From contig OZ020589.1 of NCBI GenBank assembly GCA_963971535.1, forward strand, positions 73,645,245-73,709,244: a stretch of DNA of 64,000 nucleotides. Direction: 5' to 3'. This document shows, piece after piece, positions 6,836-38,639 of this stretch; positions within the stretch are counted from its first letter, which is position 1, and every line of letters starts with the position of its first letter. The notes beneath the pieces are model-generated. The model was not told the origin of the DNA. It made no database searches and worked only from the letters and a program-made list of their open reading frames with translations. A program made the translations under genes and the position numbers. The stretch is from Notolepis coatsorum (taxonomy: Eukaryota > Chordata > Actinopteri > Aulopiformes > Paralepididae).

Positions 6836-7214
6836 TCTAACATGCTTTGCATCGTCGCCATTCCTTTATGCCCACATCGCGTTAAATATCTAAATGAACG
6901 TCACGTTGGCTGCTTAAGCTAACTAAGCTAAGCAGCTAACCGTGAGAAAACAGGAGAGGAGAGGGGAAGGAGGAGGGGCGGGGGCAGTCTACCTTTCTGT
7001 GGGGGACTGGGGGAGGGGCATTCTGTGTGTGCGTGTTACTGAGGATGGACAGATAATGTTGATATTTAAACATGTATTCATGATCATCATGCAACATAAA
7101 ACAATTGTAGGAAGTTTGGGAGAGGAAGGGGTTTTAGCTTGCGTGTTGTGAGTTCTAGGGATGCCCCGATCGATCGGCCACCGATCGTTATCGGCCGATA
7201 ATCAGTATAAATAT

Positions 7215-26453: not shown

Positions 26454-27030
26454 ATCTCTGTGTTTATGTAATCAATTGCAATTCAAATATATATATTGTG
26501 AGATCAATAACCAAAGTATTATGGTAGTTAGGCGGTGGTTGTTCTTTGAATGGAAAACAAAGTAAATAGAGGGTTGGCTTGCTAAGGACAACCCCCTATT
26601 TTCAAATTCAAACGTAGAGAGGCCGTGATTGGAGGAACACAGCTGCTGATGTCACTTTGATGACATCACGCAGAAGGCTCCAGGCTTTTGATATAAGAGG
26701 TGGGTGTTGTGACGGTGAGAGGATCACTCTGACACGGAACCACAAGGACAACATCTCACCTTTATCACACAGCAAGACGAAGCGGCAAAGGAGACCAACA
26801 GACAAAGGACTTTTTGGAGGGAGAACAGACTTTCCTCTTTGTTCATCAGCCAGAAAACAAAGACAACTCAACAACTACCATTCAACAATCTACTTTCTTA
26901 GTCTAGTTGGGATCGCAGACGGCATAGTGTCTAGTGATCACAACTATAGCGTTCTTTATTTTAATTGAAACAGATCATTTTTGTATACCTTTGTGGATTT
27001 TAATAAACCACTACTTTTGAAATAACTACC
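26454..27030 (+). repeat. 577-bp segment with an inverted copy at 30851-31427
   Basis: This block and its reverse complement at 30851-31427 have the same length, and their 103- and 88-codon shadow frames translate identically. It holds TATAAGAGG (near 26694) and TTAATAAACC (near 27000), which resemble LTR promoter and poly(A) signals. It lacks TG/CA ends and a TSD. Confidence 0.75.
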
Positions 27031-27355: not shown

Positions 27356-27559
27356 GTTCTGCATCGTAGTGGCTCTCGCTCGGCGTCACTCATGCACTGT
27401 CCTCGCATGTGCACACGCACTGAATAAAAGACCACAATGTACCTTTATATCCCAATATTTGTCTGACCACACCCCTATCAGCTTACCCATATAAGCCGGG
27501 GTGGGGCCACCCCCTCGCCTCCTTCTTCGCTTCAACCACAAGGAAGTGCCTCGGTAGAT

Positions 27560-28123
27560 CCCCACTTGACTTAACGTGATGTTGTTAGTAGGAGAGAGTT
27601 GGAAAACAAGAGATACGTTGACATCATATCTTTATTTTCTCTCTCACTATATTTGAGAAAATACGGCGATATTGTCTTCGTACTGGAGTGTCTGGAAGAT
27701 GATGATCATTCTACACCTCCGTCGGGTTTCGTATTGGGAGTTTATGCCGCTACATGCCTCTCAACTGCAGTCCTCCTTGCTGTGGCTGGTTGCGGTAAAA
27801 CCTTCCAGCGACACAGCTGGACTGTAGGACGCGCCGCTGTTGTGAGAAGCGGTGGGTTCCAGGTTGGTGAGTAATGTTTTGCTTGCAAGCTCCACTTGTC
27901 TGTTAGTGCTATGGGGGCTAGCTGACAATGTTTACGAAAACCGGCCCCAGATTAGGGTCCTTTGTTCAGCCTTTAGGCGACGGCGGAGGATCCTGGTTTG
28001 AAGCCCATTATAGCAACTAGTGGGCCACACGACCAGTAACTGGTGATCCCAGGATCTCTGGATGCGTGGGTACTTCTCTGTCACCGTATAAGGCCCCGTC
28101 TTTCATATACAAATGAGAGTATA
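27560..28123 (+). other. Unique left part of the composite insertion
   Basis: A 91-codon frame (27599-27874) includes the hydrophobic stretch GVYAATCLSTAVLLAVAGCG and ends at a donor-like GGTGAGTAA. I cannot assign it. It occurs once, unlike the duplicated units that follow. Confidence 0.3.
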
Positions 28124-30853
28124 CCCTAAATGAGGAAATGTGAGCATGGATGATCGTTATCGGAAAATCCATGTTCAAGTCGGCTACAGCCCAGATGGGA
28201 TTTGTACCGGCTCCGCCGGATGGTAAAATCACTGTTGTAAAACTGTGTTAACATCTCGTTTCTCTTCTCTCTTAAAAGGTGAGGAGGGTTTCAGAACGGC
28301 GGCCTGTCTGAGTGTGACTTGTTATATCGTTGTGTACGAGTTCAGGTGATAGCTGCTTAGCTTGCGTGCTAGTTGTGGCCTACTGTGTTGAGTGAACTGG
28401 TAATCCTTTTCTCCCCTTCTTTGATGGGCATGGGTTAAAACCTCCTGTCCTTCAAGGTTCCTGTCACGTTGCTGTTCGGCACGTTACAGGGTAAGAGGGG
28501 GGGGGGGGGAGAGGGAGTTTCCTGGTCCCACGCCCTGGAATATTGGGCGTGTGCACCGCAGAAATTCCCCCGCCATAGAGTACGTCACTGTGCGCGTCTC
28601 TGTTGGTAGGACTTCCGTGTGCTGTGTGAGTTAGGACTCTCTTTTCATGTGAGGGAGCCTCCTCAGAGTACAGAGCCTCCTCCTCAGATTGTCAAGGTGA
28701 GTGGAACCTCAAGAAGGAGTCCTACTCTATTGTGTGTGTATTCGATTCAATTCGATTATTGAGTGTGTATGGGTTCAGTGCCTCCTCCCCGGAGAGCCCT
28801 AAAACCAAACTTTTACATGGCTCAAGGTGCAATATATTCTTTTCAATCTGTACAGCTCGTGTGGGAAGTCTCTCTGGGGATTTCCGTCTCCTCTCTATGG
28901 GAGGGTGGTGGAATGTAAAAATGTAAAAAATATTTACCCCCGGCTGTGTAGACTGGGATACATGCTGTTGGTGCTTCCTTCTTTTCTATTAAAAAGGGTG
29001 GAGTTAGGAAGCATCGCACCCCTCTTGTCGTTCCCCTGGGCGCCTTGGGGATTCAATGACAGGTCTAAATAGCCTGTTCATTGATGTGGTTGTGTTCCGA
29101 CGCACGCATAGTGCTAGCTCGGGGTGTTCTGTTGAAGATCAGGCGAATGACTGGCACGCCTTGGTTGCTTGAGGTTAAAACAGCGTTTTTATAAAGCAAC
29201 TGGGATGGAGGTTTTTCCTCTTCCGACGACCTGTTTTGGTTGTCGACGGATTCTCGTTCATATCTGGGGGATGATGACGGAATGGATCTGAACATATGTA
29301 GAGGGGTCTCACGCCCTGGGGGTGGGCCACCGGGCGCGGTTCGCACCGAACGTCTGGGTGGCGCCTTCTTTTCATGTTTAAGATCAACACGCTTATCTGC
29401 CCCTTCTCCTGGAGTAGGCATGTCGGCGTGGTTAGGGCACGGAACTGGTTCTGGTCACGCTGGTCCAGATCAGTTAAACCCGTTGTCCGCCGGGGATGCA
29501 GATCTGCTGTTCTGGTACCCTGAGGGACTTGGGCTTTTTTCAGGGGGAAAAATGCCAGCTCGGTCCGGGTGTCACAGGGTTAAGCGCTATGGAGACCCTG
29601 GTTGGGTACATTTTGTACTCTGCACTGTCGTAATGGCTTACGGCCATGCCAACCTGTACACGCTCGATCTCGTCAGATCTCGGCCGCTACGCAGGTTGGT
29701 CCTGGTTAGTACTTGGTTGGGAGACCGCCTGGGAATACCAAGTACGGTGTGCTTGGGGCTGGTTCTCCATTCTTTTCGCTCCTCTCTCACGCATGACGAA
29801 GAGGGGCCTGTTGGGGTGGTCTTTGACCTCCTCTGGTGACCCTGTGCTTCCCGTATCGCCGGGCCCGGTCCGAAGTAATGTTTAGTCGACCCGTAGGCCT
29901 GGGATAACCCTTTTTTGAAAACTGAAACACTTGTACTGCGGTATAGCCGGTGTATACCCGCAGGTGTGTTTTGGAGTTTTTTCTTGAGGGGTTATAGGAA
30001 CAACCACCGCATTGGGTAACGACAAGGTGGTTGATTCCCTGGTGTGTTGGAGCAGTGTCAACTCCCGGGTTACCCGGTTGAGGGTGCCCCTGCACGTTCA
30101 TGACGTCTGCCAATCATGTCAGCCTTCTCTGCCTCAACCCCTCTGGGTGGGTTTTTTTTTTTAAATGGAGGCTTGGTCATGCAACAACGCCAGCATACGC
30201 CCCTTCCGCCGGGGGGGCTGTTCTCAGCTGACTCCTTTGGCGCCTGTCTCGTCCGCAGTGCTCCAGGCTCAGGTTACAGCCTGTTGCCTGGTTTTCCCCG
30301 GTGCGCTGCCTGCTTCCGTTGGTTAACCTTTTTTGTGTGCTTACGGCCATGCTGACTGCCTGTTCTGCAGGGTCAATGTGCCAGGCGGTGTGCTATTGGG
30401 GGGAAAGGGCCCGCTCTTGGAGGGGCCTTATCCGAATACGCTGGCGATGTGGGGGGCGGTGTCACTAAGTGACCGCCTGGTGGGGTCTGGATGCCTGGCG
30501 TCATTGACCTCTCCGGGCCCCCGTTTTCCAGGGGATCCAGTCCCTTCAGTGGGTCTGGGTCTTCCTTCGCGCTCCGCTGCTACGGCCTTGCCACGGGGTT
30601 GGGTTTGCCCTTGACCCCGTGATTCTGGGGGCAGTAACGAGGTTGTTCCCTCCGTTCGTTCCCGGGTGGCATGCGGGTTGTGCGTGTGTGTAGTCGTGGG
30701 GTCAGGCCACGGTCTGCTCACCCTGTGCGTTGAGTTGCTTGAGTGCCTCTTCGCACGGTCGGGTCCGTCGCCCTCCCGGGAACCTCCAATAGGGGGAGTC
30801 GGGGGGGCTCGGTCCTCCCTGATCTGATGGTTGTGGGGGGCCTTCAGCTGGGT
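28124..30853 (+). repeat. Tandem unit 1 of the composite insertion
   Basis: A 2.73-kb unit nearly identical to 31431-34159 (offset 3307). I count about five substitutions or homopolymer-length differences. It carries a 5S rRNA-like sequence, a G-tract (28497-28509) and several strong donor-like sites such as CAAG|GTGAGT near 28693. Short ORFs occur on both strands but none resembles a known protein. Confidence 0.85.
29636..29754 (+). rRNA. 5S rRNA-like sequence, copy 1 (probable pseudogene or 5S-derived promoter)
   Basis: The 119-nt length equals that of 5S rRNA. It starts GCTTACGGCCATGCC, contains GATCTCGTCAGATCTCGG, and keeps the intermediate element and C box (TGGTTAGTACTTGG, then TGGGAGACCGCCTGGGAATA) without change. 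The 3' end (GTACGGTGTGCTT) differs from typical 5S, and no T-run follows at once; the first TTTT is about 20 bp downstream. The internal TFIIIA/pol III control region is thus mostly preserved. Not expected to be a normal ribosomal component. Confidence 0.75.
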
Positions 30854-31427
30854 AGTTATTTCAAAAGTAGTGGTTTATTAAAATCCACAAAGGTATACAA
30901 AAATGATCTGTTTCAATTAAAATAAAGAACGCTATAGTTGTGATCACTAGACACTATGCCGTCTGCGATCCCAACTAGACTAAGAAAGTAGATTGTTGAA
31001 TGGTAGTTGTTGAGTTGTCTTTGTTTTCTGGCTGATGAACAAAGAGGAAAGTCTGTTCTCCCTCCAAAAAGTCCTTTGTCTGTTGGTCTCCTTTGCCGCT
31101 TCGTCTTGCTGTGTGATAAAGGTGAGATGTTGTCCTTGTGGTTCCGTGTCAGAGTGATCCTCTCACCGTCACAACACCCACCTCTTATATCAAAAGCCTG
31201 GAGCCTTCTGCGTGATGTCATCAAAGTGACATCAGCAGCTGTGTTCCTCCAATCACGGCCTCTCTACGTTTGAATTTGAAAATAGGGGGTTGTCCTTAGC
31301 AAGCCAACCCTCTATTTACTTTGTTTTCCATTCAAAGAACAACCACCGCCTAACTACCATAATACTTTGGTTATTGATCTCACAATATATATATTTGAAT
31401 TGCAATTGATTACATAAACACAGAGAT
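30851..31427 (-). repeat. Inverted copy of the 577-bp block at 26454-27030
   Basis: It lies exactly between tandem units 1 and 2. At its left junction GGT is shared by the unit and the block (microhomology). At its right junction six bases (TGTACC) connect it to unit 2. Confidence 0.8.
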
Positions 31428-31430
31428 TGT

Positions 31431-34159
31431 ACCTAAATGAGGAAATGTGAGCATGGATGATCGTTATCGGAAAATCCATGTTCAAGTCGGCTACAGCCCA
31501 GATGGGATTTGTACCGGCTCCGCCGGATGGTAAAATCACTGTTGTAAAACTGTGTTAACATCTCGTTTCTCTTCTCTCTTAAAAGGTGAGGAGGGTTTCA
31601 GAACGGCGGCCTGTCTGAGTGTGACTTGTTATATCGTTGTGTACGAGTTCAGGTGATAGCTGCTTAGCTTGTGTGCTAGTTGTGGCCTACTGTGTTGAGT
31701 GAACTGGTAATCCTTTTCTCCCCTTCTTTGATGGGCATGGGTTAAAACCTCCTGTCCTTCAAGGTTCCTGTCACGTTGCTGTTCGGCACGTTACAGGGTA
31801 AGAGGGGGGGGGGGGGAGAGGGAGTTTCCTGGTCCCACGGCCTGGAATATTGGGCGTGTGCACCGCAGAAATTCCCCCGCCATAGAGTACGTCACTGTGC
31901 GCGTCTCTGTTGGTAGGACTTCCGTGTGCTGTGTGAGTTAGGACTCTCTTTTCATGTGAGGGAGCCTCCTCAGAGTACAGAGCCTCCTCCTCAGATTGTC
32001 AAGGTGAGTGGAACCTCAAGAAGGAGTCCTACTCTATTGTGTGTGTATTCGATTCAATTTGATTATTGAGTGTGTATGGGTTCAGTGCCTCCTCCCCGGA
32101 GAGCCCTAAAACCAAACTTTTACATGGCTCAAGGTGCAATATATTCTTTTCAATCTGTACAGCTCGTGTGGGAAGTCTCTCTGGGGATTTCCGTCTCCTC
32201 TCTATGGGAGGGTGGTGGAATGTAAAAATGTAAAAAATATTTACCCCCGGCTGTGTAGACTGGGATACATGCTGTTGGTGCTTCCTTCTTTTCTATTAAA
32301 AAGGGTGGAGTTAGGAAGCATCGCACCCCTCTTGTCGTTCCCCTGGGCGCCTTGGGGATTCAATGACAGGTCTAAATAGCCTGTTCATTGATGTGGTTGT
32401 GTTCCGACGCACGCATAGTGCTAGCTCGGGGTGTTCTGTTGAAGATCAGGCGAATGACTGGCACGCCTTGGTTGCTTGAGGTTAAAACAGCGTTTTTATA
32501 AAGCAACTGGGATGGAGGTTTTTCCTCTTCCGACGACCTGTTTTGGTTGTCGACGGATTCTCGTTCATATCTGGGGGATGATGACGGAATGGATCTGAAC
32601 ATATGTAGAGGGGTCTCACGCCCTGGGGGTGGGCCACCGGGCGCGGTTCGCACCGAACGTCTGGGTGGCGCCTTCTTTTCATGTTTAAGATCAACACGCT
32701 TATCTGCCCCTTCTCCTGGAGTAGGCATGTCGGCGTGGTTAGGGCACGGAACTGGTTCTGGTCACGCTGGTCCAGATCAGTTAAACCCGTTGTCCGCCGG
32801 GGATGCAGATCTGCTGTTCTGGTACCCTGAGGGACTTGGGCTTTTTTCAGGGGGAAAAATGCCAGCTCGGTCCGGGTGTCACAGGGTTAAGCGCTATGGA
32901 GACCCTGGTTGGGTACATTTTGTACTCTGCACTGTCGTAATGGCTTACGGCCATGCCAACCTGTACACGCTCGATCTCGTCAGATCTCGGCCGCTACGCA
33001 GGTTGGTCCTGGTTAGTACTTGGTTGGGAGACCGCCTGGGAATACCAAGTACGGTGTGCTTGGGGCTGGTTCTCCATTCTTTTCGCTCCTCTCTCACGCA
33101 TGACGAAGAGGGGCCTGTTGGGGTGGTCTTTGACCTCCTCTGGTGACCCTGTGCTTCCCGTATCGCCGGGCCCGGTCCGAAGTAATGTTTAGTCGACCCG
33201 TAGGCCTGGGATAACCCTTTTTTGAAAACTGAAACACTTGTACTGCGGTATAGCCGGTGTATACCCGCAGGTGTGTTTTGGAGTTTTTTCTTGAGGGGTT
33301 ATAGGAACAACCACCGCATTGGGTAACGACAAGGTGGTTGATTCCCTGGTGTGTTGGAGCAGTGTCAACTCCCGGGTTACCCGGTTGAGGGTGCCCCTGC
33401 ACGTTCATGACGTCTGCCAATCATGTCAGCCTTCTCTGCCTCAACCCCTCTGGGTGGGTTTTTTTTTTAAATGGAGGCTTGGTCATGCAACAACGCCAGC
33501 ATACGCCCCTTCCGCCGGGGGGGCTGTTCTCAGCTGACTCCTTTGGCGCCTGTCTCGTCCGCAGTGCTCCAGGCTCAGGTTACAGCCTGTTGCCTGGTTT
33601 TCCCCGGTGCGCTGCCTGCTTCCGTTGGTTAACCTTTTTTGTGTGCTTACGGCCATGCTGACTGCCTGTTCTGCAGGGTCAGTGTGCCAGGCGGTGTGCT
33701 ATTGGGGGGAAAGGGCCCGCTCTTGGAGGGGCCTTATCCGAATACGCTGGCGATGTGGGGGGCGGTGTCACTAAGTGACCGCCTGGTGGGGTCTGGATGC
33801 CTGGCGTCATTGACCTCTCCGGGCCCCCGTTTTCCAGGGGATCCAGTCCCTTCAGTGGGTCTGGGTCTTCCTTCGCGCTCCGCTGCTACGGCCTTGCCAC
33901 GGGGTTGGGTTTGCCCTTGACCCCGTGATTCTGGGGGCAGTAACGAGGTTGTTCCCTCCGTTCGTTCCCGGGTGGCATGCGGGTTGTGCGTGTGTGTAGT
34001 CGTGGGGTCAGGCCACGGTCTGCTCACCCTGTGCGTTGAGTTGCTTGAGTGCCTCTTCGCACGGTCGGGTCCGTCGCCCTCCCGGGAACCTCCAATAGGG
34101 GGAGTCGGGGGGGCTCGGTCCTCCCTGATCTGATGGTTGTGGGGGGCCTTCAGCTGGGT
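31431..34159 (+). repeat. Tandem unit 2 of the composite insertion
   Basis: The second copy of the 2.73-kb unit, starting at CCTAAATGAGG and ending CAGCTGGGT like unit 1. Differences from unit 1 include CTTGTGTGCT for CTTGCGTGCT and GTCAGTGTGCC for GTCAATGTGCC. Confidence 0.85.
32943..33061 (+). rRNA. 5S rRNA-like sequence, copy 2
   Basis: By eye identical to the copy at 29636-29754. The same C box and 3' deviations are present, so both derive from the duplication of the unit and not from independent 5S insertions. Confidence 0.75.
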
Positions 34160-34235
34160 GTATTTGTCGGCCGATGGCTCTCGCTCGGCCTCCCTTGTGC
34201 ATGAGTGACGCCGAGCGAGAGCCACTACGATGCAG

Positions 34236-34529
34236 AACGTTAGGTTATGACTATAACCAAGTTCTGTTAGTAGTGGTGACGCTCGGCGTCCGACGCCGCT
34301 GCAGCCCTTGATCTCGCCTTGTGGTGGAAGCTTGGGAAGGAGGCGAGGGGGTGGCCCCACCCCGGCTTATATGGGTAAGCTGATAGGGGGTGTGGTCAGA
34401 CAAATATTGGGATATAAAGGTACATTGTGGTCTTTTATTCAGTGCGCGTGCACGTGCGAGGACAGTGCATGAGTGACGCCGAGCGTCACCACTACTAACA
34501 GAACTTGGTTATAGTCATAACCTAACGTT
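34236..34529. repeat. Fold-back with 55-bp perfect inverted ends
   Basis: AACGTTAGGTTATGACTATA begins the left arm (34236-34290). The same 55 bp is found inverted at 34475-34529. The interior (34330-34475) is the reverse complement of 27398-27540, so this fold-back and the left end of the composite insertion are relatives. It could be a solo terminal structure of one element family. Confidence 0.8.
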
Positions 34530-35849: not shown

Positions 35850-36716
35850 CACATGAAGTCAATATCCTCATTTAGCCCAGGGGCATTAAGAGCGTCAAGG
35901 CTATGAATCCAGAATGTTTCCCTCTGATTGAGTTTGCGGATGCGGTCTCCGCCCCTAATAAGAGGTTTGATATGTTCAATGCCCACAATTTTCAGTATAG
36001 AATCGTTATTGTTGTGTACTTCTGTGAAATGTCTGGCTATGGGATAAACATGATTTTTTGGTTCTGATGGCGTATTTGTGTTCAGCTAAACGATCCCGCA
36101 GACGCCGCTTGGTACGACCTACATAGAAGATGCCAGGACAAGTACATGACAAGCGATAAATGACATGAGTGGTATTACAGTTAATAAAGTCATTAATCTT
36201 GTATGATCGCTGAGATTTAAAGTCAGTGAATGTCTTGGTTTGTATGACGTTGACACAGTGTGGACAATTCATACATTTGTAGGTTCCAATAGGTCTCCTA
36301 AGCCAAGACTCCTTAGTCGCGGGAGGAAGGTAGCTATGAACTAATTTGTCTCTTAATGTTGGAGCACGTCTGAAAGAAAAAACTGGAGGTTGAGGGAACA
36401 CTTGTCTGAGAGTGGGGTCACTATCAATAATGGGCCAGTTCGCATTAATGATGCGCTTAACGTGTCCCGCTGCTGTGCTAAATTGGGTCACAAAGAAGGG
36501 GCGGGACTGAGACTCGTTCCGTCGTCTACTTTCCTTGAGCAAATCAGATCTATTAAGTGTCTGTGCCTTATTACGTGCCCTTGCCACTACATCTGGATTA
36601 TACGATCGATTTTCAAATCTGGTAGTCATATCAGCAGCCTGTTGATGAAACTCACTATCACTATCACAAATACGACGTAAACGTTGAAATTGACCAAAAG
36701 GAATGTTGTCGATCAT
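35850..36716 (-). pseudogene. Penelope-like GIY-YIG endonuclease domain
   Basis: The frame starting IPFGQFQRLRR joins the RT thumb to a CMNCPHC cysteine cluster (148-154), then HVIYRLSC and IFYVGRTKRRLRDRLAEH (GIY and YIG motifs with downstream Arg and His). Within an A-run near 36050 the frame shifts. The other frame continues to about 35850 with FTEVH, RGGDRIRKL and PGLNEDID, the conserved C-terminus including the catalytic region. The domain nicks the target DNA in active relatives. Confidence 0.85.
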
Positions 36717-37947
36717 GTGAGGGGGATGGAAAGACTGAGTCAGCTCTCAAGAGGGTGTTACGTGAAGTTTTCTTTCTAAAAATGGTGGTGGGTAATTTAC
36801 CAAATATATCTTTTGAGATAGTAAGATCTAGAAAGTCAATAGTTGTTAAAGAATATTCTATGGACAGACGGATATTGTTATTTAAAGAGTTGAGATAACT
36901 ATGAAAAGCCAACAGTTCAGATTCATTGCCATCAAAAATAAATAATAGATCGTCAATATACCGGCCATACCAGGTGATATTGTGATACCAAGGATTGATA
37001 GGGTTGAGCACATACAACTTTTCCCAAAGGCCTAAAAAGAGACAAGCATAATTAGGAGAAAAACAAGAGCCCATAGGGACACCCATAACTTGTTTGTAAA
37101 ACCCATCTGTGAACATAAACACATTGTTATGGATAATCCATCTGGTCAAGTCAACAAGAAACTTGGTAGGGGGCAAAGCATCTCCTCTATCAGATAAAAA
37201 GTGTGTCAATGCTGTAAGACCTTCCTCATGATCTATGTTCTTATACAGACTTTCAACATCCATAGTTACTAAATAATGAGATTCTAAATTGGTAAGGTTA
37301 GCTAAACTATTGAGAACATCCGTAGTATCTTCAATAAAAGAAGGGAGTTGCTTAACATACGGTTTAATGAAGAAATCAATAAATTTAGAAGCTGGTTCTG
37401 TAAGGGTACCGTTACCAGATATAATAGGACGACCAGGAGGGTTGTCAAAGGGTTCCTTGTGTATTTTAGGAAGTAAATAGAAAGACGCTAAAGCAGGATG
37501 TTCGACCAATAAAAACTTAAGATCCTTATCAGAAATCCAATTAGCCTCCTTAGCATGGTTAAGTATTGTATGAAATTGTAATTTCATATCAGATAAGGGG
37601 CTACTAGTAAGTTTGACATAGTACTTAGAGTCTAATTGGCGTATGGCCTCTGAGATATATTGGTCTTTAGAAAGAACCACAGTAGCACCCCCTTTGTCAG
37701 CAGGTCGAATGATAATATCGTCACGTTTAGCCAGTTCATCAAGAGCAGTTCGTTCCTTATAAGTCAAATTACATTTGCGCACAGATTGCAGAGTAGTACT
37801 ACTGAAAAGTTTATTAATCTCATGGTCAACTTTCCTAGTAAAGGCTATGAGACTAGGGTTCGACACAATAGGAGCAAAATTAGACTTGGGTCTAAATAAT
37901 GGAAGAGAGTCAGGCATAGTTTCAGAGTCACTGATAAGGGCCGGCAC
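36664..37947 (-). pseudogene. Penelope-like reverse transcriptase domain
   Basis: The 427-codon frame carries, in order, ADKGGATVVLSKDQY (83-97), YLLPKIHK (157-164), GRPIISG (172-178), TMDVESLYKNI (motif A, 228-238), MGVPMGSCFSP (288-298) and RYIDDLLFIF (motif C with catalytic DD, 329-338). This order is diagnostic for Penelope-like elements. The frame is lost at LLRADS, where the adjoining frame continues with IPFGQFQRLRRIC. The ATG at 37947 may not be the natural start. Confidence 0.88.
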
Positions 37948-38639
37948 AGCGTCCGTTTCGAGATCCGGCTGGGAAGCAGTGCGGGGATACTCATGTGTGT
38001 GTCCAGATTGATGGTGATACCAGGTCTTAAGATGTAAGTTACGATAAAATCGAAATAAATCGACAACATCGAAACATGTTGATTAGATTTTAAATGACTT
38101 AGCCACCTTTAATAAAGGCCTTTTAACCATCTTCCCTCTGGATTTTTACATCTTTTTGAGTGCCTGGATCGACTCTCTTCTCTGAAAAATTGTGTGTATT
38201 GAGCCGTAATGCAGATTTTGACAACAAAATTAACAATATGATGCCGCAAGTTCTGTTATATTTCAATTGCCTTACTTATTTACATAAATATAAGGTAACG
38301 GTATACTTTTGCTATATGCTATACACTACAGTCTATATGATGTGGTGGGTACGTATGATGGTAATTAAGGAATGGTGAATATTATGTTTAATGTAAATAT
38401 GTGTATACTGGATATGAACAGCAGTATTATAGGCCTTAGGCCTACAGCAGTATTGTACAGCCAGCATATACTTTTGCTCACACAATATCTTGAATGAATG
38501 AGTTTATTTATTTTGAACATAAATTGAAAATAAATAATAATAAAAACAAGTAATAAACAGATTAAAAAACAAACAAGCAGTTCATGTATTGTAAAATAGC
38601 TTAGACATAGCCTACTTGCATAGAATAGTCATGATAATG

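Follow-up and report, generated by a model that had tools for sequence, protein, structure and literature searches.

The window analysed here is a stretch of 64,000 nucleotides of the Notolepis coatsorum genome (contig OZ020589.1, positions 73,645,245 to 73,709,244 of the forward strand). It contains a 7.2-kb insertion, the features of which are given below by window position and strand, together with an upstream sequence that is also represented within it.

26454..27030, plus strand: segment of a longer dispersed repeat, from which the 577-bp inverted piece derives
27356..34529, plus strand: the insertion in full, GTT...GTT, representing a rearranged member of a non-coding, DIRS-like family with copies mostly of 5.1-5.2 kb
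27356..27525, plus strand: left inverted terminal repeat (ITR); 27377-27525 is common to the right ITR and the first 21 nt differ
28125..30850, plus strand: body unit, first copy, missing some 1.2-1.3 kb and some 74 bp found in other loci
29636..29753, plus strand: 5S rRNA-like sequence, first copy, of which the first 106-109 nt are 87-90% identical to host 5S
30851..31427, minus strand: inverted 577-bp duplicate of 26454-27030 that separates the two units, not present in the other loci read
31432..34157, plus strand: body unit, second copy, with 4 substitutions and 1 homopolymer indel relative to the first
32943..33060, plus strand: 5S rRNA-like sequence, second copy
34197..34238, minus strand: left internal complementary region, the exact complement of the left terminus
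34236..34290, minus strand: right internal complementary region, the exact complement of the right terminus; it overlaps its left counterpart by AAC, the circle junction
34336..34485, minus strand: right ITR
34486..34529, plus strand: right terminal stretch past the common ITR, with the core GGTTAT-AGTC-ATAACC and the end AACGTT, related to right ends of DIRS elements of the genome

The left ITR also holds CATATAAG near position 27490. On the minus strand, at 36006-38082, the window contains frames resembling, by eye, a Penelope-type reverse transcriptase (RT) with a GIY-YIG part.

The element is inserted directly after the letters EAEYM of a frame that an earlier note, made from the letters of the window alone, had assigned to copia RNase H. 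Both ends of the element read GTT, with no longer target duplication at its junctions. The genome was searched with the copia flanks rejoined over a single GTT (304 bp), and the rejoined site was found uninterrupted, at 97-99% identity, in all 40 scored matches (the best 40 of 1,344 first-look candidates), 38 of which covered the full 304 bases. Because all 40 scored empty sites cross the junction, the element is delimited exactly at 27356 and 34529, and the GTT is the only sequence common to the element and the rejoined copia site. The precise interruption after EAEYM and the GTT at both junctions without a longer duplication, both put forward in the earlier note, are borne out by these single-GTT empty sites. 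Empty sites with a single GTT were also found for two other copies, in tandem-array units (loci L019 and L023), and a looser one, in a diverged dispersed repeat with 83% identity, was found for L016. A trinucleotide common to site and element, with no target-site duplication, is the arrangement of DIRS1-like elements.

The ITRs of the element are about 150-190 bp long. They comprise the inverted pairs 27377-27475/34387-34485 (98% identity) and 27472-27525/34336-34389 (100%), and in the nine complete copies analysed the inverted ends were 178-189 nt long with 92-94% identity, as in DIRS1-like elements. The perfect 42-bp inverted pair that had been described as the ends of the block (27356-27397 with 34197-34238) does exist, but its right-hand member is not a terminus: it forms the left half of a complementary region inside the element, which ends on the right at 34529. 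Likewise, the related fold-back recorded at the right edge proved to be a perfect 55-bp pair (34236-34290 with 34475-34529), and it corresponds to the right half of the same region. Positions 34197-34290 thus read as the reverse complement of the right end followed by the left end, with one GTT in common, at 94 of 94 nt. The same layout was observed in all nine complete copies tested, with 95-100% complementarity in the left half and 85-100% in the right half. This stretch is an internal complementary region with a 3-nt circle junction, the signature of DIRS1-like elements, in which such a region and junction are described (PMC3266345). Table 3 of the same source lists, for the fish element TnDIRS1a, GTT/GAT termini, a divergent ITR part of 21, a conserved ITR part of 146, internal complementary regions of 36-57 and the junction AAC. 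The fish DIRS1-like elements of the DrDIRS1 group, as presented there, have in common with the window element a short divergent and a long conserved ITR part, a right extension and similar part lengths, as well as two internal complementary regions overlapping on the 3-nt AAC junction, a GTT terminus and no target duplication.

The left 769 bp of the element matched the window itself and 39 other places at 96-99% identity (the best 40 scored of 6,171 first-look candidates), and 38 of these 39 other matches started at base 1, the remaining one starting at base 15. Twenty loci were read from the top of this list and are, for that reason, the copies closest to that of the window. With the window included, 14 of the 21 copies had both ends within the stretch, and 13 of these 14 ran from GTT to GTT, the exception being L013 (GTT...GAT). 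Eight of the 13 complete copies other than that of the window were 5,139-5,232 bp long, and the others, altered in length by deletions or insertions, measured 3,559, 4,494, 5,828, 6,364 and 6,440 bp. Loci L014 and L021 only appear to have no body, as they are broken by unrelated inserts, LINE-like by eye. In L012, a match to UnaL2 reached 43 bits, under its gathering score of 55. Genome-wide, a 37-mer representing the circle junction was found at 1,094 places, and its control at none. The family is thus multi-copy and its ends coincide across copies, so the doubt raised in the earlier note, that the unit might occur only here or have discordant ends in other copies, can be set aside.

Two unusual arrangements of family members were observed. 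At L059 (C30:111334250-111334850), two copies meet inverted through the complementary region, one continuing as the other's reversed right end, which is perhaps a product of fold-back replication; the pair at C30:111334335 and 111334620 had been considered as head-to-tail elements, and this was rejected on finding the two copies inverted. On C8 (G000), three circle junctions in the same orientation, at 100702035, 100705497 and 100708954, are spaced by about 3.46 kb; the first of these (L060) was read, and the trio may represent a shortened element repeated in tandem.

The window does contain two direct copies of a 2.7-kb unit. Both are without a 1283-bp and a 74-bp stretch that are present in 16 of the 16 other loci covering these places; splicing was rejected as the cause of these gaps, the boundaries of which are not GT...AG. 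The 577-bp piece between the units is identical, at 577 of 577 positions, to its inverted source, which lies 4.4 kb upstream, the two forming a perfect inverted pair 3.8 kb apart. The 38 other scored relatives of 26454-27030 have no more than 98% identity and extend past both ends of the piece, which was therefore most likely copied from the neighbouring DNA, with no independent insertion. GGT microhomology was found at one of its junctions and a short filler at the other. Neither the two units, nor the 577-bp piece, nor the full junctions were detected in any of the 17 further loci for which body sequence was read. Because the doubled unit encloses a 100% identical copy of nearby DNA, it is a local rearrangement (or an assembly error) and no feature of the element type, and the idea of a composite built of two 5S-bearing units, present in none of those 17 loci, has to be given up as a description of the element. 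Template-switching repair after insertion would be the simplest account of the doubling. It is unlikely that the tandem unit and the inverted piece reflect an assembly error, the true copy having a single unit with two deletions: a misjoin could give both a 577-bp piece without a single difference and a structure seen nowhere else, but the units differ by four substitutions and an indel, and the junctions consist of microhomology or short filler, not long identical overlaps.

The two 5S rRNA matches in the window scored 70.2 bits each, against a gathering score of 38. All 118 nt of the 5S lie in the element, and the sequences around it are unrelated to host 5S spacers (three host stretches). 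A second, partial 5S near 30339 was rejected, as its score of 24 equals the maximum obtained with 300 shuffles and is at chance level. The complete 118-nt 5S was present, once and at the same position of the body, in 15 of the 20 loci read; half of it was found in L016, and it was missing in L014, L019, L021 and L026, through interruption, deletion or the extent of the stretch covered. The 5S belongs to the family and, on the best reading, was captured before amplification. A 41-mer specific to the element 5S, differing at nine positions from the three host 5S stretches, was found with up to three mismatches at 7,103 places (3,593 + 3,510; places counted only) and its reversed control at none. 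Because these places outnumber the circle junctions by 6.5 to 1 (7,103 versus 1,094), many copies may be truncated, diverged or members of other subfamilies. A first look gave 112,738 candidates resembling 5S, and repeats derived from 5S may therefore be very abundant in the genome; the top-scoring 5S gene clusters were located at C29:129.2-129.8 Mb, C7:113.2-113.7 Mb and C7:172.9-173.9 Mb (G000).

The presence of the full 118 nt at one place in most loci could be taken to mean that the element 5S is a working Pol III promoter or a functional RNA module driving or protecting the element, as a DIRS counterpart of the elements Cassandra and Ajax. The region that we take to be box C differs from that of the host by a single base, a TTTT begins 20 nt past the 5S and is kept in 15 of the 16 other copies examined, and the diversity of the 5S across copies is under the mean for the element (0.0086 versus 0.0164). 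However, 11% of the 118-nt windows of the element are equally little diverged, so no constraint on the 5S is demonstrated, and the region presumed to be box A has two substitutions and one deletion relative to the host, the 3' end of the element 5S being decayed as well. The 5S is also located about 3.6 kb into the 5.2-kb element, a position that, with the TTTT behind it, argues against a full-length transcript from the 5S and allows a short one, as a Pol III transcript would end after about 140 nt; moreover, L019 has kept both ends without the 5S. We therefore regard a promoter or RNA-module role as quite improbable. The same low credence is given to the broader proposal that elements with a 5S and without proteins form a class of their own within the DIRS order, in which the captured 5S would give a Pol III transcript, or a ribosomal-protein or packaging handle, and would have aided the spread to thousands of copies.

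The earlier note had seen no RT or recombinase frame in the insertion, an absence that extends to the other copies tested. The longest stop-to-stop frame in the nine complete copies was 216 aa, and no Pfam match at E≤1 was obtained for the five window frames or for the eight frames tested from copy L012. Pfam is a weak test for DIRS proteins, as it failed to detect either long frame of a DIRS element sampled from the genome, and a direct frame-to-frame comparison was used for this reason. Fourteen frames, each 200 aa or longer, taken from five DIRS stretches (L050-L054) gave no match at E≤1 to ten copies of the element, and matched one another across these DIRS loci. The gag, RT/RNase H and tyrosine recombinase frames of an autonomous DIRS element are thus absent from the copies tested of the family, which, with no frame longer than 216 aa, no Pfam match and no match to DIRS frames, is non-autonomous with DIRS ends. 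A search of a plasmid collection with one body unit yielded no match.

Potential helpers were sought among the DIRS elements of the same genome, with a generic DIRS-type RT motif as the query. All 150 places scored matched this motif (150 scored of 22,284 first-look candidates), so DIRS-type RT frames are abundant in the genome. One DIRS element, read only at its ends (L054 and L053), has a 366-aa frame near its left end and a 437-aa frame near its right end, together with a complementary region and ITRs. The 437-aa frame contains RVGE, HSTRG and, later, FVRFY, read by eye as tyrosine-recombinase motifs. Neither the gag-like nor the recombinase-type frame of this element had a Pfam match at E≤1, and the frames were named from their position, agreement with other DIRS loci and motifs recognised by eye. 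Right ends related to those of the family were found in four of the five DIRS 3' regions sampled (L053, L055, L057 and L058), with 78-80% likeness over 41-51 nt and a common core GGTTAT...ATAACC...GTT; none was identical, L053 and L057 represent one subfamily (99%), and the fifth region, L056, showed no terminus. The stretch adjoining the complementary region was also related in L053 (68%). The earlier note had looked to full-length relatives with the same ends and an RT or recombinase: full-length relatives with the same ends were indeed found, but none of the sampled DIRS elements has termini identical to those of the family. At L053:1897-1899, a relative of the family (83.5% over the first 882 bp) starts, head to tail, at the exact GTT ending another DIRS element, a junction that fits expectation if a DIRS terminus can serve as an insertion site. 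The DIRS marker PF05869 had no match in the genome, its control being positive in one of 14 genomes (E. coli).

The search with PF00589 revealed 18 recombinase places, with frames of up to 419 aa, which are Crypton-like by eye and might suggest that the element is a cut-and-paste or Crypton-like DNA transposon; this is very improbable, as the similarity of these loci to the element does not exceed chance level (best E 0.24), a result for which, together with their Crypton-like look, they were also rejected as helpers, and the complementary region of joined ends, a DIRS1-like signature, is present in nine of the nine copies tested. Eight of the Crypton-like loci (L035-L042) keep open frames of 405-419 aa, which suggests that this recombinase family is young. 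It is also hardly credible that the 7.2-kb form, duplication included, transposed as a mobile composite with two 5S units: these units differ very little and are enclosed by perfect ends, but the structure was absent from the other loci with body sequence, and the complete identity of the 577-bp piece to upstream DNA outside the element points to an event after insertion here.

We conclude, with a probability of about 0.92, that the window element belongs to a family of large DIRS1-like retrotransposons that are non-coding and non-autonomous, that the 5S was captured before the family amplified and that the body was duplicated locally afterwards. The earlier note offered two options, an element type not yet described and a non-autonomous derivative of DIRS, and the latter is supported by the 94-nt complementary region and its layout in all the copies tested, the coinciding ends, the single-GTT empty sites and the presence in the genome of DIRS RT frames and DIRS elements with related right ends. 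Transcription of the element would start from the left terminal repeat, and the element RNA would be copied in trans by the RT and RNase H of autonomous DIRS elements. The internal complementary region would hold both ends of the cDNA together and allow a circle to close over the common GTT, and a tyrosine recombinase, probably that of autonomous DIRS elements, would then join this circle to a chromosomal GTT, yielding a precise insertion without target duplication. The 118-nt 5S rRNA-like sequence would have been captured before the family amplified. The copy in the window would then have undergone two internal deletions, followed by a recent duplication of the 2.7-kb body around the inverted 577-bp upstream piece, possibly by a process resembling template switching.

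Large non-coding derivatives of LTR elements (LARDs) also have a non-coding body of several kilobases between functional ends, but LARDs have LTR ends and an integrase, whereas the element has inverted ends and GTT sites. TOC1 of Chlamydomonas may be a non-autonomous relative of DIRS and would, in that case, set a precedent for non-coding members of the DIRS order; no mention of it was found in the open-access literature searched, nor was any paper retrieved there with ‘nonautonomous DIRS’ and similar exact phrases. No 5S-bearing DIRS element was found described in this literature, judged by the titles listed. The 4.6-kb body of the element is unrelated to the DIRS frames sampled in the genome, and the element differs from the fish DIRS1-like elements described in PMC3266345 in having no RT, recombinase or other DIRS frames and in carrying a 5S-like sequence. 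Three groups of dispersed 5S-bearing elements can be compared with it on the basis of PMC10853983 and PMC10886601, in which DIRS is not mentioned, the latter source dealing with 5S- and tRNA-bearing elements. The Cassandra and Ajax TRIMs are, like this family, non-autonomous retroelements with a 5S rRNA-derived sequence. Both are short and carry this sequence within their LTRs, and Ajax has 5-bp target duplications (PMC10853983, PMC10886601), whereas the element described here is 5.2 kb long, with an internal 5S, DIRS ends and no target duplication; no direct terminal repeats were found in it. The 5S serves as a promoter or module for the element in Cassandra, a role also proposed for Ajax. 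The 5S-headed SINEs, or SINE3 (PMC10886601), likewise have a 5S-derived sequence in a dispersed non-autonomous element, but with the 5S at the head and with target duplications, whereas the 5S of this family lies 3.6 kb inside, between DIRS ITRs, in an element without target duplication.

Non-autonomous DIRS elements may be little described in the open-access literature. As the family has little else in common with the DIRS elements sampled, the ITRs, the complementary region and the GTT are suggested to be sufficient as the cis parts of DIRS. The annotation of 5S genes can be misled by this family, because some 7,100 places in the genome carry 5S of the element type. Alongside SINE3 and the TRIMs that carry 5S, the family would represent a further lineage of retroelements with a 5S.
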